Below are positions 28,634-52,130 of a stretch of DNA of 64,000 nucleotides, piece by piece; the first letter of the stretch is position 1, and every line of letters begins with the position of its first letter. A program made the position numbers and the translations under genes. Under the pieces are notes generated by a model that was given only the letters and a program-made list of their open reading frames with translations, did not search any database and was not told the DNA's origin. Source of the DNA: Thermoanaerobacter ethanolicus JW 200 (GTDB lineage: Bacteria; Bacillota; Thermoanaerobacteria; Thermoanaerobacterales; Thermoanaerobacteraceae); the NCBI RefSeq assembly GCF_003722315.1, contig NZ_CP033580.1, positions 310,001 through 374,000 on the forward strand. The letters are read 5' to 3'.

Positions 28634-28722
28634 TAGATTGGGGAAAATTCAAAAGCTTTCATCTAAGCCGTTCTATAGATATCTTTTTATCCTTCTTGAG
28701 TTTTTATCTTCTACGGTATGTA
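28634..28722. mobile_element. Solo fragment of an IS left end
   Basis: About 85 bp (AAAATTCAAAAGCTTTCATC and onward) align with the left terminus of the complete IS copies at about 80% identity, including CTTGAGTTTTTATCTT. No transposase accompanies it. An identical fragment lies at 51420-51507, so it was carried in the duplicated segment. Confidence 0.6.
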
Positions 28723-28761
28723 AGCATTGGATATTAAAAATATTTTTCAATTTCTAAGCTT

Positions 28762-28935: not shown

Positions 28936-29107
28936 TTTTCTTCACCTCCCAAATTTTCTTTCAATTTTATCCTACCATTCTTACCTCTTTCCAGTAAAAT
29001 GGCAAAAATGCTTATAAGCCCTCCCAATATTTCGTTTTGGCGAAGTTATCTATATTTTCCTTTCTTTTTCTCTTTTTTTTATATATCACCAGTGAAAAAT
29101 TTTAATT

Positions 29108-29165
29108 TTGTAACTGTAAGTTACAACAGGTTAAATTTGTAAAATGGCTTCAAAGACAGTATAAT
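29108..29165 (+). promoter_or_regulatory. Family A operator palindrome and regulator promoter
   Basis: TTGTAACT-GTA-AGTTACAA (29108-29126) is a perfect 8-bp inverted repeat. Eleven bases later come -35 TTGTAA (29137-29142), a 17-bp spacer and -10 TATAAT (29160-29165), reading towards the regulator. The palindrome is conserved at 51892, 54289 and 56374. A second TATAAT lies nearer the gene at about 29279. Confidence 0.75.
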
Positions 29166-29325
29166 CAATTGTTATAGGATACAAAAAGTCAATTTTAAAA
29201 TAAATTGTTTGAAAATTTAAACTTTATTTTTCTTCTTGTCAATTTTGTGTATTCCCTTTTATGGCCATAAATGCTATAATTATAAAAAACACTTAAACAT
29301 TTTCATCCCCTCTGGTGGTGAAATT

Positions 29326-31781: not shown

Positions 31782-32719
31782 TTTTTATCTCCTTCCTCCA
31801 ATAGTTTTACAACAGTTTTCTCAAATGAAGGAGCCTCCAGCTCCAAATATTTAAGCCCCGCTAATTCATTTACTTCTTTTATAAAGTTAATTCCTTTATT
31901 AAGTTCATCAAAAGTAACATTAAAAACATTATATTCTTTTTTAAAACCGAGAGGTTTTTCATATTCAAATACTTTTTCTACTTTTTCTACTTTTTCTTCG
32001 TCAAAAGGAATAAATGTTATCTCTACCGGCATCTTCATTAAAGTTGAAATTTCTTCTGGTGAACCTTCTGCTATAATTTTCCCTTTTACTATTACGTACA
32101 CTCTATCACAAAGAGATTTTACTTCATTCATGTCGTGACTTGCAATCAAAACAGCCTTATTTTTCATACTTCTCAATTGAGATAGCCTTTCCCAAATTCG
32201 AGTCTTTGAAATCACATCAACCATAGCTGTCGGTTCATCAAGAATAAGAAGAGGTGAATCCTTAACAATAGCAATATTTAGTAACAAAAGCCTCATCATA
32301 CCAGAAGAAAGCATATATCCTGCATGATTTTTAAAATTTTCAAGTCCCGAACCTTTTAAAGCTTCTTCTACTTTTTGGGAAAGAAGTTCGTTTTTTAAGC
32401 CTTTAAATTTAAGTGCAAATTCGATAGTTTCTTTTACCGTAAGGGAAGGAAAATACAGAATATTTTGAGGACAATAGCTAATATTTTCTCTAACAATATG
32501 GGGGCTTTTAGATATGTCTTCCCCAAAAATTTCAATTTTCCCATTGGTAGGACGCAGTAACCCAAGTACTTGCCTTATTAGAGTGGTTTTCCCTGCGCCA
32601 TTAGGCCCAATAATTCCGATAATCTCTCTTTCTCTAACTGAAATATTAAGATTGTCGTTTGCTTTGACTCCATTAGGATATATTTTGGTTAAATTTTCAA
32701 TTTTTAAAATTTCTGTCAT
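31778..32719 (-). CDS. ABC transporter ATP-binding protein of the 32-aa RiPP locus
   Basis: This 313-aa ATPase has Walker A GPNGAGKTT (residues 37-45) and Walker B LLILDEPTAMVD, followed by ASHDMNEVKSLCDRVYVI. The ABC signature region is degenerate: it reads YMLSSGMMRLLLL rather than LSGGQ. A C-terminal extension of about 90 residues after the core is typical of drug/peptide ABC-2 partners. It lies 15 bp after the radical SAM gene and overlaps the permease, so it is co-translated with it. Confidence 0.88.
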   Translation of the reverse strand: MTEILKIENLTKIYPNGVKANDNLNISVREREIIGIIGPNGAGKTTLIRQVLGLLRPTNGKIEIFGEDISKSPHIVRENISYCPQNILYFPSLTVKETIEFALKFKGLKNELLSQKVEEALKGSGLENFKNHAGYMLSSGMMRLLLLNIAIVKDSPLLILDEPTAMVDVISKTRIWERLSQLRSMKNKAVLIASHDMNEVKSLCDRVYVIVKGKIIAEGSPEEISTLMKMPVEITFIPFDEEKVEKVEKVFEYEKPLGFKKEYNVFNVTFDELNKGINFIKEVNELAGLKYLELEAPSFEKTVVKLLEEGDKK

Positions 32720-32734
32720 ACTTAATATCCTCCT

Positions 32735-34096
32735 TTATACTACCTTTCCATTTAAATCTTTTCGTTTCTTCAAATGATCAACTATTTTCTCTGTGTCTAG
32801 AGAACTAGCAAGGACTTCCATGGTAACTCTTGAAAAGAGTTGTTTTTTACAAATTTTTTTAGTATAATCTCCTACATTAACATAGGATTCAAAAGCACAG
32901 CCTCCCCCACATAAAGGCACATATGGACACTCAATACATTCTCTCCATCTATCCATTGTAATGAATTCCACATATTTGCTATTAAATTTTTTATCTCTAA
33001 CATTTCCTATTGAAAATTCTTTTTTACCAACAAAACCACCACACTTATATATATCTCCCACAGGATCAATCACAAACTGTGACTCTGAAAGAAGAAGACA
33101 TGGTCCGCTATCTACAAATCTTCGCGTAATGGGAAATCCGTCTCTTTTCGCTGAGGGAAGTGCTTTCTTAATTAAAAATTCGCTAAAGGCTTTGTCTGTT
33201 AAAACGTTAGAATCACACTGTAAAGATGGATAACAAGACTTCATTTGAGGAGAAAAATCAATATAAACTCTATTGTTTAAACCTTCTTCTTTAAGGTACT
33301 TTAATAAATTATCTATATCTTCCATATTTGCACTATCTACATTAATTCTTACAGCTACTTTAGTAAATTCCAAAAATTTTTTTAAGTTCTTTATAATATC
33401 TGAAAAACTTCCCTCCCCATTTTTATATGGTCTTCTTTTATCATGAATGTACTTGCTTCCATCAATTGTTATCTGAATAAATTTGAGGTTATTTTTCGTT
33501 AGTGTTTTTAATTCATCATCAGAAAGTTCAATAGTCCCATTTGTAATAATGCTAAAGGAAAAAGTTAAATTTTTCTTAAGGGTTTCATTATAAAAATAAT
33601 TGCAAATTTGAAATATCGGATCTTTATTAAGTAAAGGTTCGCCACCATAAAATACCAGTTCTAGGATGCGGTAGGATTTTTCATCTATCTTTCTTTGAAT
33701 CCAATTAATTATATCTTTCGTTGTATCATTAGTCATATTTTCCCTTCTGAATCCTTGGATTTCTGTTTCTATACAGTATTCGCATTTCAAATTACAATCA
33801 TAAGTGGTCAATATCATGGCCCCAAATCCTGGATTGCTGAACTTGCCTTTTTCGATAAAGTATTTTATATAATTAGACTCATTATCAGAATAAGAGACTA
33901 ATATCCCTTGATTAAAAAGTTCTTCAATAATGTTTTCAGGGCATTTTTCAAAATCTTTATTGCTAATTCTCTCAAAAATTTCTGTTTCTAAAACAATAAC
34001 ACTTCTAGTCAAAGTACTATAAAGCAAATAGTAGCCTTTTATTGGGAAATCTTCTTTTATTAGTACATATTGAGATAATTTAAGTTCTTTGGACAT
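32735..34096 (-). CDS. Radical SAM/SPASM peptide maturase of the 32-aa RiPP locus
   Basis: This 453-aa enzyme has the cluster motif CNLKCEYC (about residue 105), the glycine motif VFYGGEPLLN, and a SPASM domain (GPCLLL, DIYKCGGFVG, ECIECPYVPLCGGGC, KKICKK) for auxiliary iron-sulfur clusters. The N-terminal region (ILVSYSDNE) resembles the recognition domain of peptide-modifying members. AAGAAAGGAGG precedes the ATG. The substrate is almost certainly the 32-aa peptide encoded immediately upstream, beyond the hairpin. Confidence 0.9.
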   Translation of the reverse strand: MSKELKLSQYVLIKEDFPIKGYYLLYSTLTRSVIVLETEIFERISNKDFEKCPENIIEELFNQGILVSYSDNESNYIKYFIEKGKFSNPGFGAMILTTYDCNLKCEYCIETEIQGFRRENMTNDTTKDIINWIQRKIDEKSYRILELVFYGGEPLLNKDPIFQICNYFYNETLKKNLTFSFSIITNGTIELSDDELKTLTKNNLKFIQITIDGSKYIHDKRRPYKNGEGSFSDIIKNLKKFLEFTKVAVRINVDSANMEDIDNLLKYLKEEGLNNRVYIDFSPQMKSCYPSLQCDSNVLTDKAFSEFLIKKALPSAKRDGFPITRRFVDSGPCLLLSESQFVIDPVGDIYKCGGFVGKKEFSIGNVRDKKFNSKYVEFITMDRWRECIECPYVPLCGGGCAFESYVNVGDYTKKICKKQLFSRVTMEVLASSLDTEKIVDHLKKRKDLNGKVV

Positions 34097-34181: not shown

Positions 34182-34280
34182 TTAGAATATTGTGCGAACT
34201 GGTGCGATAAAGCACCCGCAAATAAAATTTGGTTCCCCACCTACAGGTATATGATATTTGGCTTCCTCAATAATTAACAT
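34182..34280 (-). CDS. RiPP precursor peptide, 32 aa
   Basis: From the ATG at 34280 (GGGGAGGGGTG six bases upstream) the frame encodes MLIIEEAKYHIPVGGEPNF followed by ICGCFIAPVRTIF. The N-terminal half looks like a leader; the core holds a C-G-C pair near the end. It is first in the operon with a radical SAM/SPASM enzyme and an ABC exporter, and faces regulator B1. I assign it as the precursor from context. It has no relation in sequence to the other three precursors. Confidence 0.75.
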   Translation of the reverse strand: MLIIEEAKYHIPVGGEPNFICGCFIAPVRTIF

Positions 34281-34304: not shown

Positions 34305-34374
34305 TTTACTTTTCCTTCTCTTACCTATATAATATATGGTAAGTTAAACAATTTCAACCCGAATTGATTCTGGG
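34305..34374 (+). promoter_or_regulatory. Family B promoter, palindrome and leader dyad
   Basis: The -35 TTTACT (34305-34310), 17-bp spacer and perfect -10 TATAAT (34328-34333) read towards regulator B1. The -10 is enclosed by CTTACC (34320-34325) and GGTAAG (34338-34343). A second dyad, CCCGAATTGATTCTGGG (34358-34374), lies next to the ribosome site GGGTGGTG. The whole block is repeated at 44034-44103 and, without a gene, at 37180-37250. Confidence 0.8.
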
Positions 34375-34388
34375 TGGTGTGTAAAAAA

Positions 34389-35333
34389 ATGGATGGATTC
34401 TATTATGATTTAGAGGCTTTTGGAAATGAATTGAAAGATATACGTAAATCTTTAAGGCTTACTCAGAAAGATGTAGCAGATCAAACTCTTGTAAGCACAG
34501 ATACTCTAAGGAGAATTGAAAATGGAAAGGTTATGCCTAAACAGGAAACTCTTGATTTGATGTCTGTCATCTTTAAAAGAGACTTAAATGAGCTCTTGCT
34601 TAAGTACAGACTTAAAGATTACTCTTCTTTTTATAAAATAAAAACTTCTATTGAAGATAAGCTTGAAGGTGGAGAATTTGAAGATTTGAAAAAGGAGGTT
34701 GAAGAGCTTAAAAAAATAATTGATGAAAGGAAAATGAGTCTTTATTACATTCGATTATTGAAGCAACTTCTCTTGTTAGTGGAGTCTGTTATTGAAAAAA
34801 CTGTAAATAATGATTATGAAAAGGCTTTAGAAAAATTGATTGAAGCTATGAAAGTCACTATACCAGATTTTTCTTTTTCTAACTATACCCGCTTTGTGTA
34901 CAGCAGTATGGAAGTTAGAATTTTAATGAATATGGCTATTATACTAAGAGAAAAAGAATCATACGAAAAATGTATAGAAATGCTCCTTTTCTGCTTAGAA
35001 GCTCTAGAGCCAGACAATGTAGAAGAAAGAATTAGGGTATATTATAACCTTTCCTATGCGTATCACCTGGCTTCCATATATGATAAGGCGCTTTACTACG
35101 CAGAAGAAGGTATTAAAACTTGTACAGAAAACAAGACTTTAAATGGCTTGGCACTTTTATACTTCAGAAAGGGAATTGCCGAATTTAAGCTTAATAGAGA
35201 AAATTACATGGACTCTCTTTTAAAGGCTGTAAATCTTTCAGAAATATGTGGGCATGAAAAGTTAAAGAAAATGGTCATAGAAAGTTGCAAGAAAATTTAT
35301 AATATAGACCTGAAAAATTTTCAAAAGCTTTAA
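34389..35333 (+). CDS. XRE-HTH/TPR regulator, family B (RRNPP-like), B1
   Basis: This 314-aa protein has an XRE domain (LKDIRKSLRLTQKDVADQTL, residues about 12-68) and a helical TPR-type C-terminus (YYNLSYAYHLASIYDKALYY). It is shorter than the family A regulators and not closely similar outside the HTH. The ATG at 34389 follows GGGTGGTGTG. It is divergent from the 32-aa precursor operon and shares a 108-bp control region with it. No family B peptide gene is present in that gap, so its inducer may come from the locus at 43872-44018. Confidence 0.86.
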   Translation: MDGFYYDLEAFGNELKDIRKSLRLTQKDVADQTLVSTDTLRRIENGKVMPKQETLDLMSVIFKRDLNELLLKYRLKDYSSFYKIKTSIEDKLEGGEFEDLKKEVEELKKIIDERKMSLYYIRLLKQLLLLVESVIEKTVNNDYEKALEKLIEAMKVTIPDFSFSNYTRFVYSSMEVRILMNMAIILREKESYEKCIEMLLFCLEALEPDNVEERIRVYYNLSYAYHLASIYDKALYYAEEGIKTCTENKTLNGLALLYFRKGIAEFKLNRENYMDSLLKAVNLSEICGHEKLKKMVIESCKKIYNIDLKNFQKL

Positions 35334-39751: not shown

Positions 39752-40730
39752 TTACTTCTCTTTTCCTAAAGATTTAATTAATTCAACTGTCTTTTGCTTC
39801 AATATTTCTGCTCTTACTTCTGGATAGCCAGCATTTGTATCTGGAACATCTAATTCTATGTCCGGTTTCACACCTTCTATAAAAAATGAACCCCCGTCTC
39901 GGTTTAAAATTGTGCCGGCTTCAAATCTCACAATCAATCCACTGTTGGGAAGTCTCATATATGAGGTAAGTGAACCATGGCCTAAAGTATTTCTTCCCAC
40001 TAATGTAGCAAAACCTGTTTCTTTACAAAACTTGGCAAATTCTGTGGCTGCAGAAAAAGTCGCTCTGTCTATTATTAGAAATATCTTCCCTTTGAAATTT
40101 ACATATTCATTTGATTTGAAAAACTTTTCTATATACTTTTCCTCTTGTTTAAATAGGTTTTCTTTAAATTCATAGATTGTAAAATCTTTTTTCATCTCTT
40201 CTGAAAGTTTATCGTATATAGGACTCTCTCTGAATTTATACTAGCAATTCACTCCATTTTTCATAATTTTTCTTGGAATCTTTAAATATTTTTATAAAAG
40301 GCTTTAATTCAACAAAATCTCTTATCGCTTCATCTTCGATTAACTTTAAAAAATAATTAAAATAGCTAGGACTTGCTACATAAAGGTGCCCATCATGCAA
40401 TTTCCCTAAAATTTCATTTAATTTATTATAAAACTCAATATTATTCCTTGTATTTTTTATCTCTTCTATAAACTCTTCCTTATGGGCTAGCCAGTCGTAG
40501 CCGTACATCTTTTTTACTTCATAAAAATGTGCGTAATTGTCTTTTAAAATGTTATACATATACTCAAAATCTTCTATCTTTTCTTTCTCTGTTAAATCTT
40601 TTAATTCCTTTGATGCAAATAGAGTGTTTGAAGTATATATACCGGTAAAAAATCCTGTTGAAAATATCAGAATCAATAAAAATATCAAAGTAATCATAGA
40701 AATTGACAGTTTCTTACTCAACAGTATCAC
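39752..40730 (-). pseudogene. S41-family peptidase with internal deletion
   Basis: Two frames remain. 40730-40236 encodes the signal anchor and N-terminal domain (KLHDGHLYV). 40195-39752 encodes the C-terminal catalytic part (DRATFSAATEFAKF, with the nucleophile serine region). Compared with the intact paralogue at 40742, about 130 codons of the catalytic domain core are missing and a stop lies at the junction. The encoded enzyme cannot be complete. Confidence 0.82.
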
Positions 40731-40741
40731 ACCTTTTTTCC

Positions 40742-42070
40742 TTATTTAATGCCTTTTTCCTCATTTTCTAACGATTTAATTACTTGCAGTATTTTTTGTT
40801 TTAGCTCCTCATCTTTTTCAAATGGGTTTTTAGGAATCATTTTTATTTCTATATCTGGTATAGTCCCTGTTTCAAAATATGAAGTACCATCCTGATTTAT
40901 AAGCATTGCTCCATCAAATCTCACAATTAACCCGCTATTAGGAAGGCGCATTAAACCTGGCATAAGCCATCCTCCATCTCCTTTTCTGGTTCTTTCACCT
41001 ATTACTGTAGCAAAGCCCGTTTCTTTACAAAATTCTGCAAATATATTTGCTGTTGAATAAGTGGTTCTACTAACGATTAAAAATATCTTCCCATTAAAAT
41101 CTACAGGTTCTACATATTTAGAAAATTTTTCAAAATCTTTTACTATATCTGTGGTCGCATAGTACATGAAATTTTCTTTTACTCCTGCAGGAAGCAAATC
41201 ATACATAGGAAGTTTATCTATAGTATTATTTTTCAAATCTGGTATATAATTTTCAAGCAGATTAACAATATATTCCCCACCTCTTATAAGATAAGTCTTT
41301 TCTACTGACAAGTTTTTAACTTCTTTTAACTTATTCCTCAAAGGTGCTACTATAGCTTGCAACCAGTACTCCCTATTACCCCCTTCATTATCACTAATAT
41401 CTATGAAAAGATACGGGTAATCTTTTATACTTTTCAAAAAATCGTATATGATCTCTATTTCTTTCTTGTATTCTTCTCCTTCTTTGTGATAATCAATTAA
41501 AAAAGAATAGATTTTCAAATAAGCGATCTTTCCAGGTTCTATAACGTCTGTCACAACATTTTCTCTTCTTTTCTTTAGTGAATAATAATCTTCTAGTTCG
41601 CCCTGTCTATATGTATTTTTAAAGATTTTTTCCCACATCTTATAAGAACTTTCTGATTCCCTAAACATATCTTCATAAGGTTTAAAACCTAATGGTCCAA
41701 ATAAATATTTATAATACCCGGGACTTAAAACATGTGTATGCCCATCATGCAATTTTAGTAGAATATCATTTAATGCATAATAAAATTCTAAATTATTTTT
41801 TGTCTTCTTTATCTTTTCTTTAAATTGCTCTTTATATTCTAACCAGTCATAACCATACATCTTTTTCACTTCATAAAAATGAGCATAATTGTCTTTTAAG
41901 ATGTTATACATGTATTCAAAGTCTTCTATTTTTTGCTTTTCTGTTAATTCCTTTGTCCAATATAAATTAAGCCGTGTATTCAAAAAAATATGTGTACTGA
42001 GTAATATAATTACTGAAAATACCAAAGTAACTATTAAAATAGGTAACTTTTTTCTCAAGAATATATCCAT
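40742..42070 (-). CDS. Membrane-anchored S41-family (C-terminal processing-like) peptidase
   Basis: This 442-aa protein has an N-terminal membrane anchor (LPILIVTLVFSVIILLSTHI) and the S41 fold: a helical domain with KLHDGHTHV, a beta region with FIDISDNEGGN, and the nucleophile block SRTTYSTANIFAEF, in which the Ser after TY is the likely catalytic residue. The active site faces outside the membrane. Its place right after the 62-aa precursor suggests it removes a leader or trims the exported product. No PDZ domain is obvious. Confidence 0.84.
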   Translation of the reverse strand: MDIFLRKKLPILIVTLVFSVIILLSTHIFLNTRLNLYWTKELTEKQKIEDFEYMYNILKDNYAHFYEVKKMYGYDWLEYKEQFKEKIKKTKNNLEFYYALNDILLKLHDGHTHVLSPGYYKYLFGPLGFKPYEDMFRESESSYKMWEKIFKNTYRQGELEDYYSLKKRRENVVTDVIEPGKIAYLKIYSFLIDYHKEGEEYKKEIEIIYDFLKSIKDYPYLFIDISDNEGGNREYWLQAIVAPLRNKLKEVKNLSVEKTYLIRGGEYIVNLLENYIPDLKNNTIDKLPMYDLLPAGVKENFMYYATTDIVKDFEKFSKYVEPVDFNGKIFLIVSRTTYSTANIFAEFCKETGFATVIGERTRKGDGGWLMPGLMRLPNSGLIVRFDGAMLINQDGTSYFETGTIPDIEIKMIPKNPFEKDEELKQKILQVIKSLENEEKGIK

Positions 42071-42149: not shown

Positions 42150-42338
42150 TTACTTTATTGCTCCGTAATAAGGCTCCATCTTAGGACGGCATGCCTGCAC
42201 CCAACAATATGGACCCCAGCACACACAGGGACCTGGTCCTTCTGGTAATTTTATTATATCACAAGGTGTTATAGGAAAAACGTCATTAGGTATCTCATTG
42301 CCAATTTCTTTATTATACCCTTCTATCAAATATTCCAT
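42150..42338 (-). CDS. RiPP precursor peptide, 62 aa, cysteine-rich
   Basis: This 62-aa peptide has an acidic leader (MEYLIEGYNKEIGNEIPNDV) and a core with five cysteines, prolines and tryptophans (GPCVCWGPYCWVQAC). GGGAGG precedes the ATG by nine bases. It lies between the radical SAM/SPASM gene and an S41 peptidase. The CxC and spaced Cys pattern suits thioether crosslinks made by the upstream enzyme. It is unrelated in sequence to the other precursors in the window. Confidence 0.8.
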   Translation of the reverse strand: MEYLIEGYNKEIGNEIPNDVFPITPCDIIKLPEGPGPCVCWGPYCWVQACRPKMEPYYGAIK

Positions 42339-42430: not shown

Positions 42431-43756
42431 TTAAACCCTTTCTTGTTTTTTCTCTAACAATTCTTTTGCTATATCTTTTAAATACTCTTCTAAAACATAC
42501 TTATAATCCCTACACCTCTCCGTCACTCTCTCTATTCTTCTCCTTGGACATCCTCCCATACAAATTGGCAGTAGCTTGCAATCAATACACATCTCGTCTA
42601 TCGTAGGGTCATAAAGAAGATATTCCATATATTTATCAACATTCAAAGAAACTAAGGACGTGTCGTCCAATATATTCCCTACTCTATACTCTTCCATCCC
42701 TATATCAGACCAGCACTTGTATATGTATCCTTCCGGGTCTATCACCATTGAATTTACACTATCTGCTCCACAAAAATTGTATTTTAAATAGGGATACTTA
42801 TGCATCAAATTATTTGAAAAACCTCTTTCTTTTAACACTTTTTCAAACATATAAGTTACTTTAGAGTATTCATACATAGATAGACATTTATTTGGTACGT
42901 AACTGTCATTTGTATGTTCTACATGTCCCAAATAAACGCTGAGTCTATTTTTCAATCCTCTTATTTCTAACTCATCTAATATCTTATTAACTCTGGTTAC
43001 GTTTTCTTTGTCCACGTTTATTCTTAAGTAAATATTTGGCATTATATCAATATTTTCTTCTATGTTGATCAGTATCTTTTCAAAAGTCCCCTGTCCACCT
43101 TTTAAAGGACGTCTTTTATCATGCACATCCTGGGGACCGTCTAATGTTATTTGTATAAATGATAATCGCAAGTTCTTAAATTGTTCTACTACTTCCCTCG
43201 TCAAGTTATACCCATTTGTCACAATAGATGCACCATATATAACTTCATTTTCATCACAGAGCTTTATAATTTTTTCTGACATATCTTTAACAATATCAAA
43301 AGCTAATAAAGGTTCCCCTCCATACCAAGTAATATTTACACTCTGCAAATACTTTATCTGCCGCTTTATGTATTCAATTATTTTACGCTGCACTTCTTCG
43401 CTCATAAATACATTTTTCTGACTATCCTTTTCATAACAATATACACAGGCAAAATTACACCCTAGTGTAGGTGCAATAGTTAAACCCAAATTTTTGTCAT
43501 TAAATCTACTCCGCCAGAGATTGAAACGTAATAGCTGGAGTTCGTCAACATTGTCATCTATGAGAAATTGACCTTTTTTCAAGTCTTCTATTAATTTACT
43601 GTCATCAATTGAAATGCCTTTTTCCACATAATTTTTATACTTGTCGTAATTCTTTTTTTCCATTAAGGCTAAAGCTCCTGTTCTTGAATTATAAGCTACT
43701 ATTTTCTCCGGCTCTTCAGGAAAGTCAAAGAAAAAGTTATATCTAGACGGTTTCAT
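42431..43756 (-). CDS. Radical SAM/SPASM peptide maturase of the 62-aa RiPP locus
   Basis: This 441-aa enzyme has the cluster motif CNFACVYC near residue 105, WYGGEPLLAF, and a full SPASM domain (NFCGAD, YIYKCWSD, MCIDCKLLPICMGGC and ERCRDY). The spacing resembles maturases of cysteine-rich (six-cysteine type or quinohemoprotein-type) peptides. It is preceded by the leader RNA and the family B secreted-peptide gene and followed by the precursor. GGGGAG precedes the ATG. Confidence 0.9.
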   Translation of the reverse strand: MKPSRYNFFFDFPEEPEKIVAYNSRTGALALMEKKNYDKYKNYVEKGISIDDSKLIEDLKKGQFLIDDNVDELQLLRFNLWRSRFNDKNLGLTIAPTLGCNFACVYCYEKDSQKNVFMSEEVQRKIIEYIKRQIKYLQSVNITWYGGEPLLAFDIVKDMSEKIIKLCDENEVIYGASIVTNGYNLTREVVEQFKNLRLSFIQITLDGPQDVHDKRRPLKGGQGTFEKILINIEENIDIMPNIYLRINVDKENVTRVNKILDELEIRGLKNRLSVYLGHVEHTNDSYVPNKCLSMYEYSKVTYMFEKVLKERGFSNNLMHKYPYLKYNFCGADSVNSMVIDPEGYIYKCWSDIGMEEYRVGNILDDTSLVSLNVDKYMEYLLYDPTIDEMCIDCKLLPICMGGCPRRRIERVTERCRDYKYVLEEYLKDIAKELLEKKQERV

Positions 43757-43789: not shown

Positions 43790-43870
43790 GCCCATCTCAA
43801 AAACTTTTCTACATAAAAGTTCTAAGATGTGCCTTTGGCCTGCTTGAAATCTATCTTGGCTTTGCATCTT
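43790..43870 (-). ncRNA. Conserved leader RNA element, copy 3
   Basis: The blocks AAGATGCAAAGC, ATAGATTTCAAGCAGGC and the long stem (43790-43808 with 43814-43832) match the leader copies at 28532 and 51316. Here it lies directly after a family B peptide gene and before a radical SAM gene, so it is shared between two unrelated peptide families. Confidence 0.55.
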
Positions 43871-44103: not shown

Positions 44104-44119
44104 GGTGGTGTGTAAAAAA

Positions 44120-44755
44120 ATGGATGGATTCTATTATGATTTAGAGGCTTTTGGAAATGAATTGAAAGATATACGCAAATCTTTAAGGCTTACTCAAAAA
44201 GATGTGGCAGATCAAACTCTTGTAAGCACAGATACTCTAAGAAGAATTGAAAATGGAAAGGTTATGCCTAAACAGGAAACTCTCGATTTGATGTCTGTCA
44301 TCTTTAAAAGAGACTTAAATGAGCTCTTGCTTAAGTACAGACTTAAAGATTACTCTTCTTTTTATAAAATAAAAACTTCTATTGAAGATAAGCTTGAAGG
44401 TGGAGAATTTGAAGATTTGAAAAAGGACGTTGAAGAGCTTAAAAAAATAATTGATGAAGGGAAAATGAGCCTTTATTACATTCGATTATTGAAGCAACTT
44501 CTCTTGTTAGTGGAGTCTGTTATTGAAAAAACTGTAAATAATGATTATGAAAAGGCTTTAGAAAAATTGATTGAAGCTATGAAAGTCACTATACCAGATT
44601 TTTCTCTTTCTAACTATACCCGCTTTGTGTACAGCAGTATGGAAGTTAGAATTTTAATGAGTATGGCTATTATACTAAGAGAAAAAGAATCATACGAAAA
44701 ATGCATAGAAATGCTCCTTTTTTGCTTAGAAGAACTGGAGAAAGACAATATAACA
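44120..44755 (+). pseudogene. Family B regulator B2, truncated by an inverted repeat
   Basis: The first about 210 codons are nearly identical to regulator B1, including the XRE domain and the first TPR helices. At EELEKDN the sequence changes to the GGGAC-type repeat at 44753-44818 and the frame continues into unrelated codons to 44893. About 100 C-terminal residues, which would form part of the peptide-binding groove, are gone. A 257-aa protein could still be made and could bind DNA. Confidence 0.82.
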
Positions 44756-44818
44756 AGCAGGAGAGACGGTTCCTTTTATCTGAAAAAATCAGACAGAAGG
44801 AACCGTCCCTCCTGTTTG
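44753..44818. repeat. GGGAC-type inverted repeat, copy E4
   Basis: AGAGACGGTTCCTTTTATCT and, after six bases, AGACAGAAGGAACCGTCCCT form a stem of about 20 bp. It lies exactly at the truncation of regulator B2. Confidence 0.8.
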
Positions 44819-44893
44819 ATAATCCTGCTTTTTGTTCAAGGTTTAATGAAAATAAGTCTGTGTCAAAATTTTGTAGGTAAAAATTTTTTATAA

Positions 44894-45146: not shown

Positions 45147-45491
45147 TCATATAACTGTTTCTAAAATTCTGTAATATTGGCATTTTCTAATAAATTTTAT
45201 TATATCTAATAATAGTTCTTTATTATCAAGGTTTAAGCTAAGTTGTTCTCTTATTTTTTTAACGATTTCTCCTAAGCAATATTTTCCATCACACATTTCT
45301 AAAATTTTAACTCCTACAAAATTGACAATCAACATTCTAGAATCCTCGGGATTAAAGATAAGTGCTCTAAAGGGATTATCAGAAACTTGATGAATTTGGA
45401 TATCATCCCTTGTTTTCAATTTTTGTTTTTCTATGAATCTTATTAAACCGAATATTTCTTTAAAATATTCAAGCTCTAGGGATTTATCCAT
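45147..45491 (-). CDS. PqqD-like RiPP recognition protein
   Basis: This 114-aa protein has a C-terminal half, FVGVKILEMCDGKYCLGEIV, which matches the PqqD fold: beta strands, the C-D-G turn, then a three-helix winged motif. PqqD-type proteins bind the leader of a RiPP precursor and present it to a radical SAM enzyme. It is the last gene after a radical SAM gene 33 bp upstream. Its N-terminal 60 residues are extra. Its client is likely the 39-aa peptide at 51162. Confidence 0.78.
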   Translation of the reverse strand: MDKSLELEYFKEIFGLIRFIEKQKLKTRDDIQIHQVSDNPFRALIFNPEDSRMLIVNFVGVKILEMCDGKYCLGEIVKKIREQLSLNLDNKELLLDIIKFIRKCQYYRILETVI

Positions 45492-45523
45492 CTTTTACCT
45501 CCTCTCCTCTTTTAACATTGTTT

Positions 45524-46588
45524 TTAATAAGCCAATATATCATCTGATACATAAGGAATATTACGAGTTTTGTTTTCGGTATAATTTTTAACAAAATCTA
45601 GTACTATTTTATTTTGCCAACCATATTTTAGCCTTTTATTCCAAATATTTGAAAAAGTTTCCTCCTTTAAATCTCCAAAAACAACTGGAACCGAACAATC
45701 TAGTTTTACTTTCCCATCCGGACGTATCAATGCCGCACAAGTTGGAATAAATATAAACTTGCTATAATATGCAGGATATTCTGCCCCACGAATAATTTTT
45801 ATTAACGAATTATACTGTTTTATAAGACTTTTCCCAAGTGCATCTAATTCCTCTTTTTCGTTTTCACTCAAAATCAACAAGTCCCTATTTAAAAAACCTC
45901 TTCCTGCTTCAAGTACAGGAGTAAATATGAACTCCTTGGCTCCAAGAAAAATAGCAAGTTCGACCATTTTCCATATATTTTTGTAATTTTTCTTATTACA
46001 TGTATGTGCTACCTTTACTAAAATTCCTGCATTAGCTATTTTATATACTGCCTCCACAGCTCTTTCCCATGAGCCAGTCACACCTCTTACCCAATCATGT
46101 TCTTGAGGTGTAGCTCCATCAACACTTACCTGAACCCATTTTTTTTGATTTGGAAGAGATTTTAAAAAATCAATAAAGGAGTCATCTACAAACCATCCAT
46201 TTGTTATAATCCCAATTGCAATATTTTTATTCTCAGCAAAAACTGTTAAAATTTTCTCAACAAGTGATCGTTTTAATAAAGGTTCACCGCCAGAAATAAT
46301 AACAGTAAATACTCCCATTGCCTTAAGTTCTTTTGCAATTTTCAACCATAATTCTTCTGATAACTCTTCATTATAACTCTTAGGATTGCTACTTGAATTA
46401 TTATAACAATGCACACACTTTAAATTACATAAAGATGTAATTTCCAATTGAACTCCTAAAGGCCTATTGAAAGAAATCAAATTATTATTTTTATCTAAAA
46501 CAAATTCTTTAGCTTTCTCAACTAATGGAGAAATTTTTATACCAAGAGCATCGGAAAAATATTCTAGAAGCATTTGAAATTCTACCAC
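45524..46588 (-). CDS. Radical SAM enzyme of the 39-aa RiPP locus
   Basis: This 354-aa protein has the cluster motif CNLKCVHC (about residue 52) and GGEPLLK. A shortened C-terminus keeps TCAALIRPDGKVKLDC but not a full SPASM cysteine set, so at most one auxiliary cluster. PqqE/epimerase-like members look like this. It lies between ABC transporter genes and the PqqD-like gene. Possible chemistry includes epimerisation or crosslinking of the 39-aa precursor. Confidence 0.82.
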   Translation of the reverse strand: MVEFQMLLEYFSDALGIKISPLVEKAKEFVLDKNNNLISFNRPLGVQLEITSLCNLKCVHCYNNSSSNPKSYNEELSEELWLKIAKELKAMGVFTVIISGGEPLLKRSLVEKILTVFAENKNIAIGIITNGWFVDDSFIDFLKSLPNQKKWVQVSVDGATPQEHDWVRGVTGSWERAVEAVYKIANAGILVKVAHTCNKKNYKNIWKMVELAIFLGAKEFIFTPVLEAGRGFLNRDLLILSENEKEELDALGKSLIKQYNSLIKIIRGAEYPAYYSKFIFIPTCAALIRPDGKVKLDCSVPVVFGDLKEETFSNIWNKRLKYGWQNKIVLDFVKNYTENKTRNIPYVSDDILAY

Positions 46589-46604
46589 AAAACCTCACCT
46601 CTTC

Positions 46605-47390
46605 CTAATACGTTCCCAAAATTCCTTTCTTTTTAGCCTTTTTGTCTGCTATATCAAAGATTAAAAGCCCAATCACAAGAAACAGTATAGAGGTTATCAC
46701 AAGTTTTACAAAATCAACTCCCATGAGATTTAATGGAATTCTCTCTATATTTAACTTCCTTAGCATCATAACGCTTTGAAACATAGGGAAATATGAGAAA
46801 ATTTCCCTCACTGCCGGTGACAAAATCCTTTCTGGAATAAGTAGTGGCACTAAAAGGACGTATATCAGTATTGCCAGCCAGTTTTTCGCCTCTTTACTTC
46901 TCATCATGAGTACTAAGCCAGCTAAAAAGAAAGCAAAACCATAAAGGCCTGGAAGAAGTATAAGCAAAACCAAAAGGCTGTAGATATTTGTAAAAACTAC
47001 CACTCTGTGAATCAATCCAACTATCAAAATAAATATCGCTATGATTACAATGGATTCTATGGCATGTATTAAAGCTCTTACCAAGAAAATACTCTTTATG
47101 TCCACAGAAGAAAGATGAAGATGTTCAAAAGTCCCCTGCATCCTCTCATCTTCCATATTTTGTGCAATAGAAGATATTGAAAACATTGCAAAAAACCATA
47201 CCACATATCCCAGCATATTTGCAGCTGTAAGAGATCTACTGCTCTCTACATTTCCTATAACTAAAGTAGAAGAAAAATTAATGAGCCAGAAAAGTATGTA
47301 GAGGAATATGAGGAAGGGAAGATTAGCAGTAGGCATATTTTTTATAAATTTCACAAACCTTCTCAATTCAGCCTCCCATAAATACTTCAT
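46605..47390 (-). CDS. ABC-2 type permease of the 39-aa RiPP locus
   Basis: This 261-aa membrane protein has six helices (for example NLPFLIFLYILFWLINFSST). The conserved cytoplasmic patch QNMEDERMQGTFEHLHLSS identifies the ABC-2 permease family. It overlaps the ATPase gene by four bases (ATGA). With it, it would form an exporter or immunity pump for the locus. Confidence 0.86.
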   Translation of the reverse strand: MKYLWEAELRRFVKFIKNMPTANLPFLIFLYILFWLINFSSTLVIGNVESSRSLTAANMLGYVVWFFAMFSISSIAQNMEDERMQGTFEHLHLSSVDIKSIFLVRALIHAIESIVIIAIFILIVGLIHRVVVFTNIYSLLVLLILLPGLYGFAFFLAGLVLMMRSKEAKNWLAILIYVLLVPLLIPERILSPAVREIFSYFPMFQSVMMLRKLNIERIPLNLMGVDFVKLVITSILFLVIGLLIFDIADKKAKKKGILGTY

Positions 47391-48364
47391 TTGTTTTCTC
47401 CTCCTTCCACAAAACTTTTGAATATCTCTTCAAACGGTTCTCCTAAATTGTCTATCTCAACCGGTATTACAGAAAATTTCCTAAAAATATCAAAGACATC
47501 GTATATGAGTTCTGGCCTTTCAAATGTAAGCTCCAATATATCTGTATCTATATTCCCTTCATAAAAACTTATTTCAACACCTCTTATACTTTTTAATTCT
47601 TCCAAATATTGGCTTTCTTCATTTTTTCTCAAAGTAAATCTATATTTAGCATAAGAAATTTTATGTCTGAGCTCTGAGGCAGTCCCCTCTGCTACTACTT
47701 TCCCTTTATTGATTATCAGAATCCTATCAGACACTTTCTCAATAAATCTCAAATCATGGGAAGAAATGATAAGGGTAGATATTTCTTTTAATTCTTTTAC
47801 CAGCTTCTCTACTTCAAATCGCGTTATAATATCAAGCCCGAGGAGGAGTTCATCGAGTATTAAAAGTTTTGGCTTTGTAGCAAGTGCACATATGATAGCA
47901 GCTTTCTGCTGCATCCCTCTTGAAAGCTTTCCAACCTCTTCTTCCAGTTTGTCCTGTATCATCAGCCTTTCTGCCCACATTTCCATGTCATCTTTTACTT
48001 CTCTTGCAGATTTTCCTCTCAAATTTGCAAAGTAATAAACGTTTTCTCTGATGGTCATATGCCAGTATAGATTTCTTGAACCTTCAAGTAATGTCCCTAT
48101 TTCTTTCATTACCTCTTTTTGAGCTTTAGGCATATCTTTCCCAAATATTTGTATACTGCCTTTGTCGGGGGAGACAAGGTTTAAAAGCATTTTCACAGTC
48201 GTTGTCTTCCCTGCTCCGTTTGGACCTAAAAGTGCAAAAATCTCATTTTCTCTTACAGCAAAAGATACTCCATCCACCGCTTTTACTGCCCTCTTGCCCG
48301 CCCCAAAAGTCTTTTCCAAATTTTCTGCCTTAAGGACTATTTTGTCCTCCATTTTCATAACCAC
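47387..48364 (-). CDS. ABC transporter ATP-binding protein of the 39-aa RiPP locus
   Basis: This 325-aa ATPase has Walker A GPNGAGKTT near residue 44, signature LSRGMQQK, Walker B LLILDELLLGLD and H-loop SSHD. The unusual ELLLGL replaces the common EPT sequence after the catalytic Glu. A C-terminal domain of about 90 residues follows. There is a 157-bp gap to the upstream B12 radical SAM gene, so a separate promoter is possible. Confidence 0.88.
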   Translation of the reverse strand: MVMKMEDKIVLKAENLEKTFGAGKRAVKAVDGVSFAVRENEIFALLGPNGAGKTTTVKMLLNLVSPDKGSIQIFGKDMPKAQKEVMKEIGTLLEGSRNLYWHMTIRENVYYFANLRGKSAREVKDDMEMWAERLMIQDKLEEEVGKLSRGMQQKAAIICALATKPKLLILDELLLGLDIITRFEVEKLVKELKEISTLIISSHDLRFIEKVSDRILIINKGKVVAEGTASELRHKISYAKYRFTLRKNEESQYLEELKSIRGVEISFYEGNIDTDILELTFERPELIYDVFDIFRKFSVIPVEIDNLGEPFEEIFKSFVEGGENK

Positions 48365-48521
48365 CTCTATTTCTGATATTTTGTAAATTTTTATAAATTG
48401 AACTTATTTCAATCCATAAAAATATTTATTTAATATTTATTTTGTAAAACTTAATCTATAATGACAAAATTCCTCTTTACTGTTGCTAATTACTTCAGTT
48501 TTTAACAAATTAAATTTCATT

Positions 48522-49856
48522 TTAGTTTTTTATTTTATTTTTAAGGTTATTAATATATCTTTTTTGAAAAATAAGGGATATAGCTCTTCTATGTAAAAGC
48601 TCAATTTCTTCTTTGCTTAGATATAACGTGTCTAAATATACTTTTTTATCCAAGCTAATTTCTGTGGGGTCCGTTACATGTAATTTAACTCCAAAATTAT
48701 CAGGTTTTTCAAAACATGGTGTGCCTGGGAAGGGGGTAAATATATGGCATTGAATTTCAGAAGCTGGTATATTTTTTATAAGTTTGAAAGTTTCGTCTAC
48801 ATCATCCTTAGTTTCAAAAGGAATTCCAACCATAAAAGAAGCTGTTACTTTTATTCCTAGATTTTCAATATACCCTACTTTTTCAATAACTTCATATGGA
48901 GTATAATTTCTGTGGAGTAATCGTAAAATTCTTGGACTTCCTGACTCAATCCCCAAGAAAATTTTTGATAATCCTGCCTTTTTGAGGGTTTTCAATAAAT
49001 CATACTCCAAATGTTCTACTCTTGCAGAAAATCCAAAAGTAATATCTAGGTTTTTGCTAATTAATAATTCTGCAAATTCTCTAGCTCGTTTTTTGTCTAC
49101 TAAAAAATTATCATCAACAAAACCAAATGTACAGATATTAGGATAAAGAGACCTTATGTATTCTATTTCTGCGACAATGTTATGGGCACTTCTACCTCTC
49201 CAATTTCTCCCCCACATTGCAGTAGTAGAGCAGTAAAAACAGGAATAAGGACATCCTCTGCTAGAAAGTATAGTTGCCATTTTAGACAACTTATAAAAAT
49301 TATCATGATAGGTTCTATTCGGTATTTTTAATTCATCAAGCTGAGTTACAAACTCTCTTTTTTGAGTGGTGATTACTTCTCCTTTTCCAGTTTTAAAAGC
49401 TATTCCTCTAATACCGGACAACTTCTCAATAAAATTTTCTTGATTGGAACATTTTTGCAATATAGTTATTAATTCTTTGAAAGTGTGTTCTCCTTCATAC
49501 ATAACTACTATATCTCCATAACTTTCTGTAAGTATCTTCTTATATAGAAAAGTAGAAGTATTCCCCCCAAAAACGATAATCCCATCGAAATTTTCTTTTC
49601 TTAATCTATCTGCAATTCTCAAACCTGAATTTAACGCTGGAGCAAAATTAATACTTATACCAACAATATCGGGACTTATTTTCTTTATTTTATTTACAAT
49701 CATATCTTCATCCATTTCATCTATCAAAGCATTGAAAACATACACTTTACACAAATGTTGAATTTCAGTAGCAAGATATAGTACCCCCAAAGATACGTGT
49801 TCCTCTTTGTTTTTACCTACACTTGGAAAATATGGGCTAATCAACACGACTTTCAT
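48522..49856 (-). CDS. B12-binding-domain radical SAM protein of the 39-aa RiPP locus
   Basis: This 444-aa protein has an N-terminal cobalamin-binding-type Rossmann domain (residues 1-150, VLISPYFPSVG and VVMYEGEHTF) and a radical SAM core with CPYSCFYC. There is no obvious cobalamin His motif, as in many class B methyltransferases. Enzymes of this class methylate unactivated carbons of peptides and other substrates. I start at MKVVLISPYF (49856), with GGTGAGGAT; it overlaps the upstream gene by 20 bp, implying translational coupling. Confidence 0.85.
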   Translation of the reverse strand: MKVVLISPYFPSVGKNKEEHVSLGVLYLATEIQHLCKVYVFNALIDEMDEDMIVNKIKKISPDIVGISINFAPALNSGLRIADRLRKENFDGIIVFGGNTSTFLYKKILTESYGDIVVMYEGEHTFKELITILQKCSNQENFIEKLSGIRGIAFKTGKGEVITTQKREFVTQLDELKIPNRTYHDNFYKLSKMATILSSRGCPYSCFYCSTTAMWGRNWRGRSAHNIVAEIEYIRSLYPNICTFGFVDDNFLVDKKRAREFAELLISKNLDITFGFSARVEHLEYDLLKTLKKAGLSKIFLGIESGSPRILRLLHRNYTPYEVIEKVGYIENLGIKVTASFMVGIPFETKDDVDETFKLIKNIPASEIQCHIFTPFPGTPCFEKPDNFGVKLHVTDPTEISLDKKVYLDTLYLSKEEIELLHRRAISLIFQKRYINNLKNKIKN

Positions 49857-51093
49857 AAATATCCTCACCTTTAGTGAAAATATAACCATCTAAAAAATTT
49901 TCTAATAGCTTTATTGCGTTTTCTTTTTGTAGCTTTTTACATATATGAGGGCATATCCCACCATAAGTAACAGCCTCTTCTTCGCTTACTTCTGAAAATA
50001 AAAAGTGAGTTTTTTCATAAAAATTGAGTTTCTCATTAGCTAATTTTTTAAAACAGTTATTTTCAAGATCAATGTAAACATTATCTTGATATTCTTTAAA
50101 ACAGAAATAAACTTTTAAGTCTTTAATAAGAATTGTATACGAAGAACCGCATCTTACTAAATTAGGAGGAAGATACATTCCATTATTCACAAAGTACCGA
50201 ATACTACTTAACACCCCACCTCCATAAATTCTCATAATCTTTTCAAGATTTTCACTTAATAATGTCGGAACAATTTTTTTATAAAAATTAAGGTTTAAGT
50301 CTCGTACACAAGAGAAAATTAGACTATATATATTGGAAACAACTGGTGACAAATAAAATGTATTAATCAAGGCATAAAGTTGATTCTCAAATATGGCATG
50401 GGATAATTTTAATATACTTTCCATATCGTTGTTTACAAAATATACAACTACTGGAATCCCAAAATTCTGGCGTATTTTCCTTACAGGTTCAAACAAAAGC
50501 AATATTTGGTCGGGTTGATAAATCAAAAAATTTACATATATATTAATTTCTGAATCATGAACTAATGAAATAAATGTATCAAAATCGGTAATTTTATATT
50601 GTGAATTAAAAAAGATATGCGGATTAGAAAAAAAGATTATAAATTCCACTTTTTTATTTTTACTTATAGGCAAAAACAGTTCTTTAAGTTCAAAGATAAT
50701 TTTAGGTAATAAATTTATATACTTATCATTAAATACCAAACCTATGGATATGCTTTTAAATTCCTTTTTTGTCTCCAATACTAAGTTTACTATTTTATTC
50801 CACGGAACTCTAAATATTTCATTAGAGGTTGTTAAATCTAGAAAAACACGGAAAGAAATTTTTTCTTTATACAAATAATACCATTTTTCTTTTAATCTTT
50901 CTATATTTGTATTATTACATGCTAAAAAACCTAAGTATTCTAATTTTTGTATAATTTCTTTACTTCTTCTTGTAATATCTTTCTCTCCTGGTAAATATAT
51001 AATATTGCCACTCCAAAAATCTATTAAAGCAACCCCAGTAGAAACTGGTACAACTACAAGATAATTACCTAAATCAGAGAACTGAACCATCAA
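49837..51093 (-). CDS. Unidentified 418-aa protein, possible degenerate radical SAM/SPASM fold
   Basis: The N-terminus (VALIDFWSGNIIYL and a helical stretch) resembles the recognition domain of peptide maturases. A central 200 residues alternate beta and alpha as a TIM-type barrel would, but the CxxxCxxC motif is missing. The C-terminus has cysteines in a SPASM-like order (RCGSSY, VYFCFKEY, GGICPHICKK). It lies between the 39-aa precursor and the B12 radical SAM gene and overlaps the latter. I infer a noncatalytic partner or scaffold, and am not sure. Confidence 0.5.
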   Translation of the reverse strand: MMVQFSDLGNYLVVVPVSTGVALIDFWSGNIIYLPGEKDITRRSKEIIQKLEYLGFLACNNTNIERLKEKWYYLYKEKISFRVFLDLTTSNEIFRVPWNKIVNLVLETKKEFKSISIGLVFNDKYINLLPKIIFELKELFLPISKNKKVEFIIFFSNPHIFFNSQYKITDFDTFISLVHDSEINIYVNFLIYQPDQILLLFEPVRKIRQNFGIPVVVYFVNNDMESILKLSHAIFENQLYALINTFYLSPVVSNIYSLIFSCVRDLNLNFYKKIVPTLLSENLEKIMRIYGGGVLSSIRYFVNNGMYLPPNLVRCGSSYTILIKDLKVYFCFKEYQDNVYIDLENNCFKKLANEKLNFYEKTHFLFSEVSEEEAVTYGGICPHICKKLQKENAIKLLENFLDGYIFTKGEDIYESRVD

Positions 51094-51119
51094 AAACTCC
51101 TCCCCTATGTACTTTAGGG

Positions 51120-51151
51120 TTCCCTAGTACTCTATCTAGAGTACTAGGGAA
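51120..51151 (-). terminator. Hairpin after the 39-aa precursor
   Basis: TTCCCTAGTACTCT (51120-51133) pairs perfectly over 14 bp with 51138-51151, with a 4-nt loop. It begins 11 nt after the precursor stop. No T run follows on the minus strand, so RNA stability or processing is more likely than termination. Confidence 0.78.
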
Positions 51152-51161
51152 TAACATTGGA

Positions 51162-51281
51162 TTAAAATATTATTTGAATACCTGTGACAGAGACCGCTGT
51201 TTCCCCTATTTCCATTAGTATTTCAGTAAAATCAACCAGGTCAGGATTTTCGTAAAGATTTGCATCGTTTAGTTTAAACAT
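51162..51281 (-). CDS. RiPP precursor peptide, 39 aa, no cysteine
   Basis: From the ATG at 51281 (GGGGGAGGTG eight bases upstream) the frame has an acidic leader (NDANLYENPDLVDFTEILME) and a hydrophobic core, ETAVSVTGIQIIF. The Val/Ile/Thr-rich core with no Cys suits C-methylation or epimerisation by the B12 and ordinary radical SAM enzymes of the operon. Its upstream DNA, from the ribosome site outward, is the same as that of the 26-aa precursor at 28416, so the two share control. Confidence 0.75.
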   Translation of the reverse strand: MFKLNDANLYENPDLVDFTEILMEIGETAVSVTGIQIIF

Positions 51282-51315
51282 TTTCTCACCTCCCCCTAAA
51301 CAATTTCTATACTGA

Positions 51316-51405
51316 GCACATCTTAAAACTTTTTTATTTGTATTTACATCAAAGTTCTAAGATGTGCCTTCAGCCTGCCTGAAATCTATTTTTGCTTTGC
51401 ATCTT
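51316..51405 (-). ncRNA. Conserved leader RNA element, copy 2
   Basis: This is almost identical to the copy at 28532-28621: a 17-bp stem (51316-51332 with 51351-51367) preceded by GCAGGC and AAGATGCAAAGC blocks. It lies between the family A peptide gene and the 39-aa precursor. Confidence 0.55.
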
Positions 51406-51419
51406 TTTTATTTATAATA

Positions 51420-51507
51420 GATTGGGGAAAATTCAAAAGCTTTCATCTAAGCCGTTCTATAGATATCTTTTTATCCTTCTTGAGTTTTTATCTTCTACGG
51501 TATGTAA
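51420..51507. mobile_element. Solo fragment of an IS left end, second copy
   Basis: This is the same 85-bp relic as at 28634-28722, similar to the left end of the IS at 2506. It sits at the same place in the duplicated control segment. Confidence 0.6.
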
Positions 51508-51545
51508 GCATTGGATATTAAAAATATTTTTCAATTTCTAAGCTT

Positions 51546-51719
51546 CTATCCACCCCATGGATTATTTATATCTCCATGTACCCTTGGTTCTCTTTCTTCT
51601 GCTAACATGTATTGTTGCATTACTTTTTTATCATTTATATAGGAGGGCTTTACGTTAATGTACGTCACTATCCCAAGTAAAAAAGCTACTAATGCCAATA
51701 AAGCTATAGCTTTCTTCAA
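51546..51719 (-). CDS. Family A secreted signal-peptide precursor, copy 2 (TTG start)
   Basis: The DNA and the 57-aa product are identical to the gene at 28762-28935: GGGAGGTG ribosome site, TTG start, hydrophobic helix AIALLALVAFLLGIVTYI, and tail ending RVHGDINNPWGG. The facing regulator is reduced to a remnant, so this locus would depend on the regulator at 29326 or 21827. Perfect conservation implies recent duplication or continued selection. Confidence 0.7.
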   Translation of the reverse strand: MKKAIALLALVAFLLGIVTYINVKPSYINDKKVMQQYMLAEEREPRVHGDINNPWGG

Positions 51720-51891
51720 TTTTCTTCACCTCCCAAATTTTCTTTCAATTTTATCCTACCATTCTTACCTCTTTCCAGTAAAATGGCAAAAATGCTTATA
51801 ACCCCTCCCAATATTTCGTTTTGGCGAAGTTATCTATATTTTCCTTTCTTTTTCTCTTTTTTTCATATATCGCCAGTGAAAAATTTTAATT

Positions 51892-52130
51892 TTGTAACTA
51901 TAAGTTACAACAGGTTAAATTTGTAAAATGTCTTCAAAGGCGGTAAAATAAACTGTTAAGAGATTTAAAAAGGAATTTTTAGAATAAATTATTTGAAAAT
52001 TTAAACTTTATATACCTTCGCTTTTAATTTTTTGTCATTCTCCCCTATAGGTATAAATGTTATAATTACAAAAACTTTTTATACTTTTGTTTCTGACAAT
52101 GGCGAAATAATGTTTTCTAATAGAGAATAA
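51892..52130 (+). pseudogene. Family A operator with a decayed regulator start
   Basis: TTGTAACT-ATA-AGTTACAA (51892-51910) and the downstream TTGTAA/TAAAAT promoter are preserved. The later leader (GTATAAATGTTATAATTACA) and the first codons, ATGTTTTCTAATAGAGAATAA, match the start of the family A regulator but stop after six codons. No more of the regulator follows. The operator may still be active for the peptide/RiPP operon. Confidence 0.7.

Follow-up and report, generated by a model that had tools for sequence, protein, structure and literature searches.

The window analysed here is a 64,000-nucleotide stretch of Thermoanaerobacter ethanolicus JW 200 (contig NZ_CP033580.1, positions 310,001 to 374,000). 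Between its positions 45147 and 51281, the frame listing and a domain search revealed seven minus-strand genes making up an operon, which encodes, in this order, a precursor peptide, a 417-amino-acid (aa) protein, a B12-binding radical SAM enzyme, an ABC ATPase, an ABC-2 permease, a second radical SAM enzyme, and a PqqD-like protein. The locus is almost certainly an operon for a ribosomally synthesised, radical-SAM-modified peptide (RiPP). The same gene set was found in one other genome, G273. The genes of the window are as follows.

51162-51281, minus strand: precursor peptide, 39 aa (frame listing; homologue at L013:728-856 in G273)
49837-51090, minus strand: 417-aa protein (no Pfam or NCBIfam family; homologue in G273)
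48522-49856, minus strand: B12-binding radical SAM enzyme, 444 aa, Cx3Cx2C at 202-209 (Pfam and NCBIfam, G273 copy, tree)
47387-48364, minus strand: ABC transporter ATPase, 325 aa (ABC_tran match; G273 copy 51% identical)
46605-47390, minus strand: ABC-2 type permease, 261 aa (ABC2_membrane_3 match; G273 copy 39% identical)
45524-46588, minus strand: radical SAM enzyme, 354 aa, SkfB/PqqE/ScmE-like, with a degenerate SPASM region (domains, G273 copy, solved-structure relatives)
45147-45491, minus strand: PqqD-like RiPP recognition element (RRE) protein, 114 aa (Pfam PqqD (PF05402) match; G273 copy)

The intergenic gaps down the operon are 68, -20 (an overlap), 157, -4, 16, and 32 nt when the second gene is started at TTG 51093. 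For that gene, ATG 51090 is the better start since it is preceded by the Shine-Dalgarno sequence GGAGGAG; the frame listing gives the 418-aa frame. The frames named in a preliminary description of this DNA were all present with the domains assigned to them (frame listing; Pfam scores over the cut-offs). That description had left out the 417-aa gene, the most unusual part of the operon, whose product and the precursor are the two operon products without any Pfam or NCBIfam family match.

To look for the same gene set elsewhere, as the preliminary description had proposed, 398 genomes of the phylum and 19 other members of the family were searched. The 417-aa protein was found in G273 only among the 398 genomes, and it was absent from the 19 family members, one of which is of the same species. 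The G273 contig (L013, 8,984 bp), which comes from another family of the same phylum, contains all seven genes in identical order, followed by transposase-like fragments.

L013:728-856: precursor, assigned by position and by alignment with the window precursor
L013:947-2152: 417-aa-like protein, 29% identity
L013:2163-3488: B12 enzyme, 49% identity
L013:3490-4479: ABC ATPase, 51% identity
L013:4445-5239: permease, 39% identity
L013:5270-6331: radical SAM enzyme, 48% identity
L013:6336-6689: PqqD, 25% identity

With identities this low and a G+C content this different (0.372 against 0.308), the G273 locus cannot have come from the window's genome by cross-contamination. No third case emerged when plasmids, viral contigs, and genome contigs were searched; the genome-contig scans missed G273 too and are thus not exhaustive. 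Judged from the sequences, the gene set is real and very rare.

The precursor of the window, MFKLNDANLYENPDLVDFTEILMEIGETAVSVTGIQIIF, and that of G273, MIQANGVNLYENPELVNCSDVFSFEPQGITISVAGSINIVAD, are both preceded by a strong Shine-Dalgarno sequence (GGGGGAGGTG and AAGGAGGTGA, respectively). The former can be split, at a putative boundary, into the leader MFKLNDANLYENPDLVDFTEILMEIG and the core ETAVSVTGIQIIF. The local alignment score of the pair was 63, which none of 20,000 shuffles reached (best shuffle, 53); this and the same position in G273 rule out a chance open reading frame (ORF). In the first 16 ungapped N-terminal codons, 10 residues are identical, 7 of them through synonymous codons. 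The motifs NLYENPxLV and SV.G.I.I are kept in both precursors, the latter being spread over most of the tail. Both tails are free of Cys and consist of Val, Ile, and Thr to about one half; the window precursor has no Cys at all, and the sole Cys of the G273 precursor sits in the leader half. Therefore, the precursor frame, whose lack of conservation had been named as the point that would overturn the proposal, is conserved, and the precursor and gene order together lend good support to the proposed radical-SAM RiPP whose hydrophobic tail has no Cys. The 39-aa precursor matched no Pfam or NCBIfam model, hence no NHLP or Nif11-type leader was seen. The alternation of polar residues with Val/Ile known from polytheonamide was not significant: the window tail was no better than any shuffle, and the G273 tail gave p ~0.12.

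The leader contains one further element.

51237-51254, minus strand: leader motif YENPDL, codons 10-15, of the type YxxPxL (sequence; conserved stretch NLYENPDLV at 51234-51260)

The leaders read YENPDL in the window and YENPEL in G273, and both fit [Y/W]xxPx[L/V/I/F/A], the motif recognised by discrete lasso-peptide RREs (PMC13381572). YxxPxL occurs in lasso leaders (PMC10368454), and for the Bacillota LPP RiPPs, RRE binding has been demonstrated to require YxxP (PMC13381572). The protein at 45147-45491, the free-standing last gene product of the operon, scored 26.4 bits against PqqD (PF05402; cut-off, 23.4). Since the leaders carry the motif type bound by lasso-type RREs, YENP(D/E)L is probably the site at which the PqqD-like protein binds and holds the precursor. 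A pattern search for NLYENPxxL in the 398 genomes gave only the window and G273 as plausible cases; other DNA-pattern matches for NLYENP (G067, G252, and G368) were rejected, as they read NFYENP and occurred about as frequently as matches to a reversed control pattern.

The lasso and LPP RiPPs of Bacillota thus share with this locus a YxxPx[L/V..] leader and a discrete RRE protein (PMC13381572, PMC10368454). However, the asparagine-synthetase-like cyclase and the B2 protease of lasso peptides are absent from the operon genes and the G273 contig, which excludes a lasso operon; the operon also lacks an archaeal-type signal peptidase gene and has radical SAM enzymes instead. A leader motif known from lasso-type RREs is here joined to radical SAM chemistry, and leader swapping between the systems therefore becomes testable.

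The B12 enzyme (48522-49856) scored 52.9 bits for B12-binding (cut-off, 32.1) and 93.5 bits for Radical_SAM in Pfam. Its best NCBIfam scores were those for BchE (173.9 bits) and ApyD (170.6 bits), both far under the cut-off; for the G273 copy, the ApyD model ranked first with 165.7 bits. In the preliminary description, the enzyme had been likened to the peptide C-methyltransferases of proteusins. Proteusins (polytheonamide, with the C-methyltransferases PoyB/PoyC and the epimerase PoyD) resemble this locus in the combination of a B12 enzyme with a second radical SAM enzyme and in the Cys-free tail rich in Val/Ile/Thr; however, the precursors here are only 39-42 aa, without an NHLP or Nif11 leader, and the B12 enzyme of 444 aa scored 94.1 bits against TIGR03975 (cut-off, 281.85). 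Moreover, its radical SAM motif is Cx3Cx2C, whereas the TIGR03975 enzymes fetched from the phylum have Cx7Cx2C, as described for PoyC (PMC5682303). Membership in the proteusin/bottromycin (PoyC, TIGR03975) family was excluded by score and motif; peptide C-methylation stayed plausible.

In a small tree, the B12 enzymes of the window and G273 formed their own fully supported pair on a deep branch. Clustering with non-peptide enzymes, the other outcome named beforehand as damaging, was not supported in this tree, and neither was a grouping with peptide enzymes. Relatives of the B12 enzyme in a sister genus (L004-L012, 33%) are not situated in RiPP loci; they adjoin a HAD-phosphatase-like gene and, in some cases, a sulphite-reductase-like gene. 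ApyD resembles the B12 enzyme as a B12-binding radical SAM protein that acts on a RiPP and as a near-best profile match, and it forms beta-methyltyrosine on its precursor (PMC10635010). It differs in that it carries its own RRE domain, in a model of 645 positions, and has a P450, an MNIO, and a methyltransferase as partners.

From these comparisons, C-methylation of the peptide tail at an unactivated carbon appears to be the likeliest reaction, with a probability slightly above one half. The enzyme may instead perform a non-methyl reaction on the peptide, such as ring closure or oxidation, and would then give no +14 Da product. This is the less probable course: BchE, an oxidative cyclase, matches as well as ApyD does, and the enzyme branches apart from the TIGR03975 peptide methyltransferases, but the peptide-acting B12 radical SAM enzymes PoyC and ApyD methylate (PMC5682303, PMC10635010), and a tail rich in Val/Ile/Thr suits beta-carbon methylation.

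The second radical SAM enzyme (45524-46588) scored 91.4 bits for Radical_SAM and 23.0 bits for SPASM, narrowly over the cut-off of 21.5, in Pfam. Among solved structures, SkfB (E 1.4e-25) and PqqE (3e-14) come nearest to it, and its NCBIfam matches include PqqE, MftC, ScmE, NirJ, and heme-pathway enzymes. The auxiliary-cluster cysteines of the related SPASM enzymes P0003 and P0006 are missing in both the window and the G273 copies. They are also missing in P0002, a relative on a Macrococcoides plasmid, where a ThiF-like protein, a radical SAM/SPASM protein, and the radical SAM protein without these cysteines are adjacent (L055:3797-5939) and the neighbouring radical SAM/SPASM protein retains its own. 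Both copies of the second enzyme retain C197 and C298, and C197, which does not occur in the three relatives compared, is a candidate hydrogen donor. SkfB, the sporulation killing factor maturase, forms a thioether with a core Cys, whereas the tails here are Cys-free and the SPASM cluster cysteines are missing; a sactipeptide of the SkfB type was rejected, as a core Cys that could serve as thioether donor is absent in both precursors.

The second enzyme had been suggested to be a YydG-type epimerase. The epipeptides YydF/EpeX do resemble this locus in a short Cys-free Val/Ile precursor, a radical SAM enzyme, and an ABC ATPase with an ABC-2 permease, which recalls yydIJ (PMC7026026). The tail rich in Val/Ile and a C197 that could donate hydrogen would suit an enzyme that epimerises Val/Ile to give a membrane-disrupting product. 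However, YydG-type epimerases are described with a C-terminal [4Fe-4S] cluster, which YydG is believed to use (PMC5682303), and the second enzyme has no cysteines for it. Furthermore, the 25 best NCBIfam matches shown include no epimerase family, the operon differs in its additional B12 enzyme, PqqD, and 417-aa protein, and no frame for a YydH-type membrane protease occurs within 45147-51281. Therefore, membership in the YydG type fails, the enzyme being nearer to SkfB/PqqE/ScmE; epimerisation as such is rather unlikely, and an epipeptide-like product is similarly doubtful.

The scores with PqqE, MftC, ScmE, NirJ, and heme-pathway enzymes, together with the presence of PqqD, raise another explanation, in which the peptide is a disposable carrier as in the logic of PQQ, mycofactocin, or SynChlorMet, and a PqqD and a PqqE-like enzyme turn a few residues into an exported small product. 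A proteobacterial plasmid also groups two SPASM radical SAM enzymes with PqqD and a B12 radical SAM enzyme (Indioceanicola, L056:4031-7886, in the order radical SAM/SPASM, PqqD, B12 radical SAM, radical SAM/SPASM; no precursor identified). However, the tail has no Tyr and no Glu-Tyr or Val-Tyr end, the kept residues SV.G.I.I are distributed along most of each tail, and the ABC-2 transporter belongs to the conserved set. We regard a carrier as improbable.

The 417-aa protein gave no sequence match to any Pfam or NCBIfam family or solved structure. The pair from the window and G273 shares a beta-rich N-terminus (LIDF[WF]SGN), GGGVLxSI, TYGGICPH, and the cysteines C262, C315, C331, C347, and C381 (numbering of the 418-aa frame); Cx3Cx2C is absent from both copies. 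Two AlphaFold models had pLDDT values of 44 and 45. Both of these low-confidence models begin with a beta-hairpin and a helix, followed by beta/alpha repeats and then a hairpin between Cys 315 and 331. With the first model, Foldseek returned TIM barrels, mostly radical SAM enzymes (best E, 0.002); with the second, a NifB-type entry, AprD4, and lipoyl synthase were among the first five, and four of the five best chains were radical SAM proteins. No match had an E below 0.001, and the second model also matched ordinary TIM barrels. As the models are of low confidence, these matches are leads only. They give a little better than an even chance that the 417-aa protein is a pseudo-radical-SAM protein without catalytic cysteines.

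Otherwise, the protein might have no kinship with radical SAM enzymes and represent a new family, its N-terminus being RRE-like and its conserved cysteines holding a metal or Fe-S site. The lack of any sequence match, the ordinary TIM barrels among the matches of the second model, and hhalign, which gave no support for kinship of the pair with SPASM maturases or with the second enzyme, speak for this. Against it stand the predominance of radical SAM proteins among the best Foldseek matches and the order of the parts, since an N-terminal beta-hairpin domain, beta/alpha repeats, and a Cys-flanked hairpin follow one another as in SPASM maturases. Its probability is appreciable, if below one half. 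A bolder form of the pseudo-radical-SAM proposal is a two-part machine, in which the enzyme at 45524-46588 would have lost its auxiliary-cluster domain and the 417-aa protein would have kept the SPASM-like cysteines and lost the catalytic ones, so as to supply the cluster and a leader-binding N-terminus in trans to one or both radical enzymes. This would be a new RiPP class combining C-methylation with a second radical change; we give it a low probability.

Two control elements were identified around the precursor gene, together with a small ORF.

51120-51151, minus strand: perfect 15-bp inverted repeat (hairpin) between the precursor and the 417-aa gene, z -4.4
51316-51367, without strand: inverted repeat GCACATCTTA(R)AACTTT-18 nt-AAAGTT(Y)TAAGATGTGC, upstream of the precursor
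51546-51719, minus strand: small ORF with a signal-like N-terminus (MKKAIALLALVAFLLGIVTYINV...), candidate pheromone precursor, inside a duplicated cassette

G273 has a hairpin at the same place (z -5.1) that is unrelated in sequence; a hairpin in both genomes despite unlike sequences suggests that the structure is under selection. No T run follows the window hairpin, and an Rfam search gave no match. The hairpin after the precursor probably keeps the precursor mRNA in excess.

A second copy of the upstream inverted repeat (28532-28583) and a half copy (43816-43832) precede other radical SAM RiPP operons of the window; elsewhere in the genus, the repeat adjoins radical SAM genes in several genomes. 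In the window, seven matches were found against 0.29 expected by chance. Two of the seven (2822 and 25610) are weak, with three mismatches, and lie inside a duplicated transposase gene, the copies of which (2505-4151 and 25293-26939) are 99.6% identical and 23 kb apart. The whole cassette at 51287-52074 is 95% identical to 28503-29288, and the homology ends at the Shine-Dalgarno sequence of the first gene. The cassette is also present in G002, which belongs to the same species (L072:18863-19749, 91%). It is flanked there by the same Crp-like gene as in the window, but the operon behind it at the matching site is a different radical SAM/ABC operon. Thus, the promoter in front of the B12 operon is used by another RiPP operon in a sister genome, which suggests a way for bacteria to exchange peptide pathways and retain the control. 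Genes for HTH-TPR regulators, which we read as RRNPP-type, occur nearby (29236-30609, 21692-23110, 34374-35333, and a truncated one at 44105-44893), and pheromone control is plausible. The regulator at 44105-44893 is truncated relative to the copy at 34374-35333, and a AGGGACGGTTCCTT-type repeat extends through its end.

The conserved precursor, the gene order, the domains, the hairpins, and the shared cassette are direct observations; beyond them, we infer the following scheme of RRE binding, chemistry, and export. The leader motif YENPDL of the 39-aa precursor would be recognised by the PqqD-like RRE protein, which would present the C-terminal tail, free of Cys and rich in Val/Ile/Thr, to the two radical enzymes. 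Of these, the B12 enzyme most likely methylates one or more unactivated carbons of the tail, and the second, auxiliary-cluster-free radical SAM enzyme would make another radical change, epimerisation and a C-C linkage both being possible. As a non-catalytic, radical-SAM-like partner, the 417-aa protein would probably act as a scaffold or cluster carrier, and the ABC-2 transporter, with its ABC_tran and ABC2_membrane_3 domains (Pfam), may export the product or protect the producer. The hairpin would hold the precursor mRNA in excess, and the operon would be driven by the inverted-repeat promoter cassette common to other radical SAM RiPP operons of the genus.

Several points weigh against this scheme. 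As only two examples are known, little can be concluded from single conserved residues; the operon encodes no leader protease; and the PqqD-like protein has no match among solved structures, so that the YxxPxL contact is read from sequence. The B12 enzyme scores far under every curated family cut-off, and in the tree the B12 pair joins neither BchE nor TIGR03975 nor any other group with support. Cyclisation and other reactions are also within the range of B12 radical SAM enzymes. The low pLDDT values and the hhalign result for the 417-aa protein count here too. With these points considered, the scheme as a whole is favoured with a probability moderately above one half. The locus represents a new, rare family of radical-SAM RiPPs. 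A conserved precursor with six conserved partners defines it, and its central protein belongs to no known family; the RiPP assignment is firm, the chemistry tentative.

Other RiPP-like loci were observed in the window. A radical SAM/SPASM gene at 26936-28453 lies behind the inverted-repeat cassette, and the insertion sequence copy at 25293-26939 separates it from a likely ABC transporter (23529-25262); intact operons homologous to this locus are present in L043 and L044. At 31044-34096 and 34182-34280, there is a RiPP-like locus with a radical SAM enzyme, an ABC pair, and a short minus-strand frame (MLIIEEAKYHIPVGGEPNFICGCFIAPVRTIF). The radical SAM/SPASM enzyme at 42431-43756, with the half inverted repeat upstream, is near TIGR04334 (Clo7bot; 392/600 bits), and a Cys-rich 62-aa ORF (TPCDIIKLPEGPGPCVCWGPYCWVQACRPK, 42150-42338) lies downstream of it. 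S41-peptidase-like genes occupy 39752-42070, one of them split in two frames (39752-40195 and 40236-40730). Such genes adjoin radical SAM RiPP operons in the window and in sister genomes (L046, L047, and L049) and are possible leader proteases.

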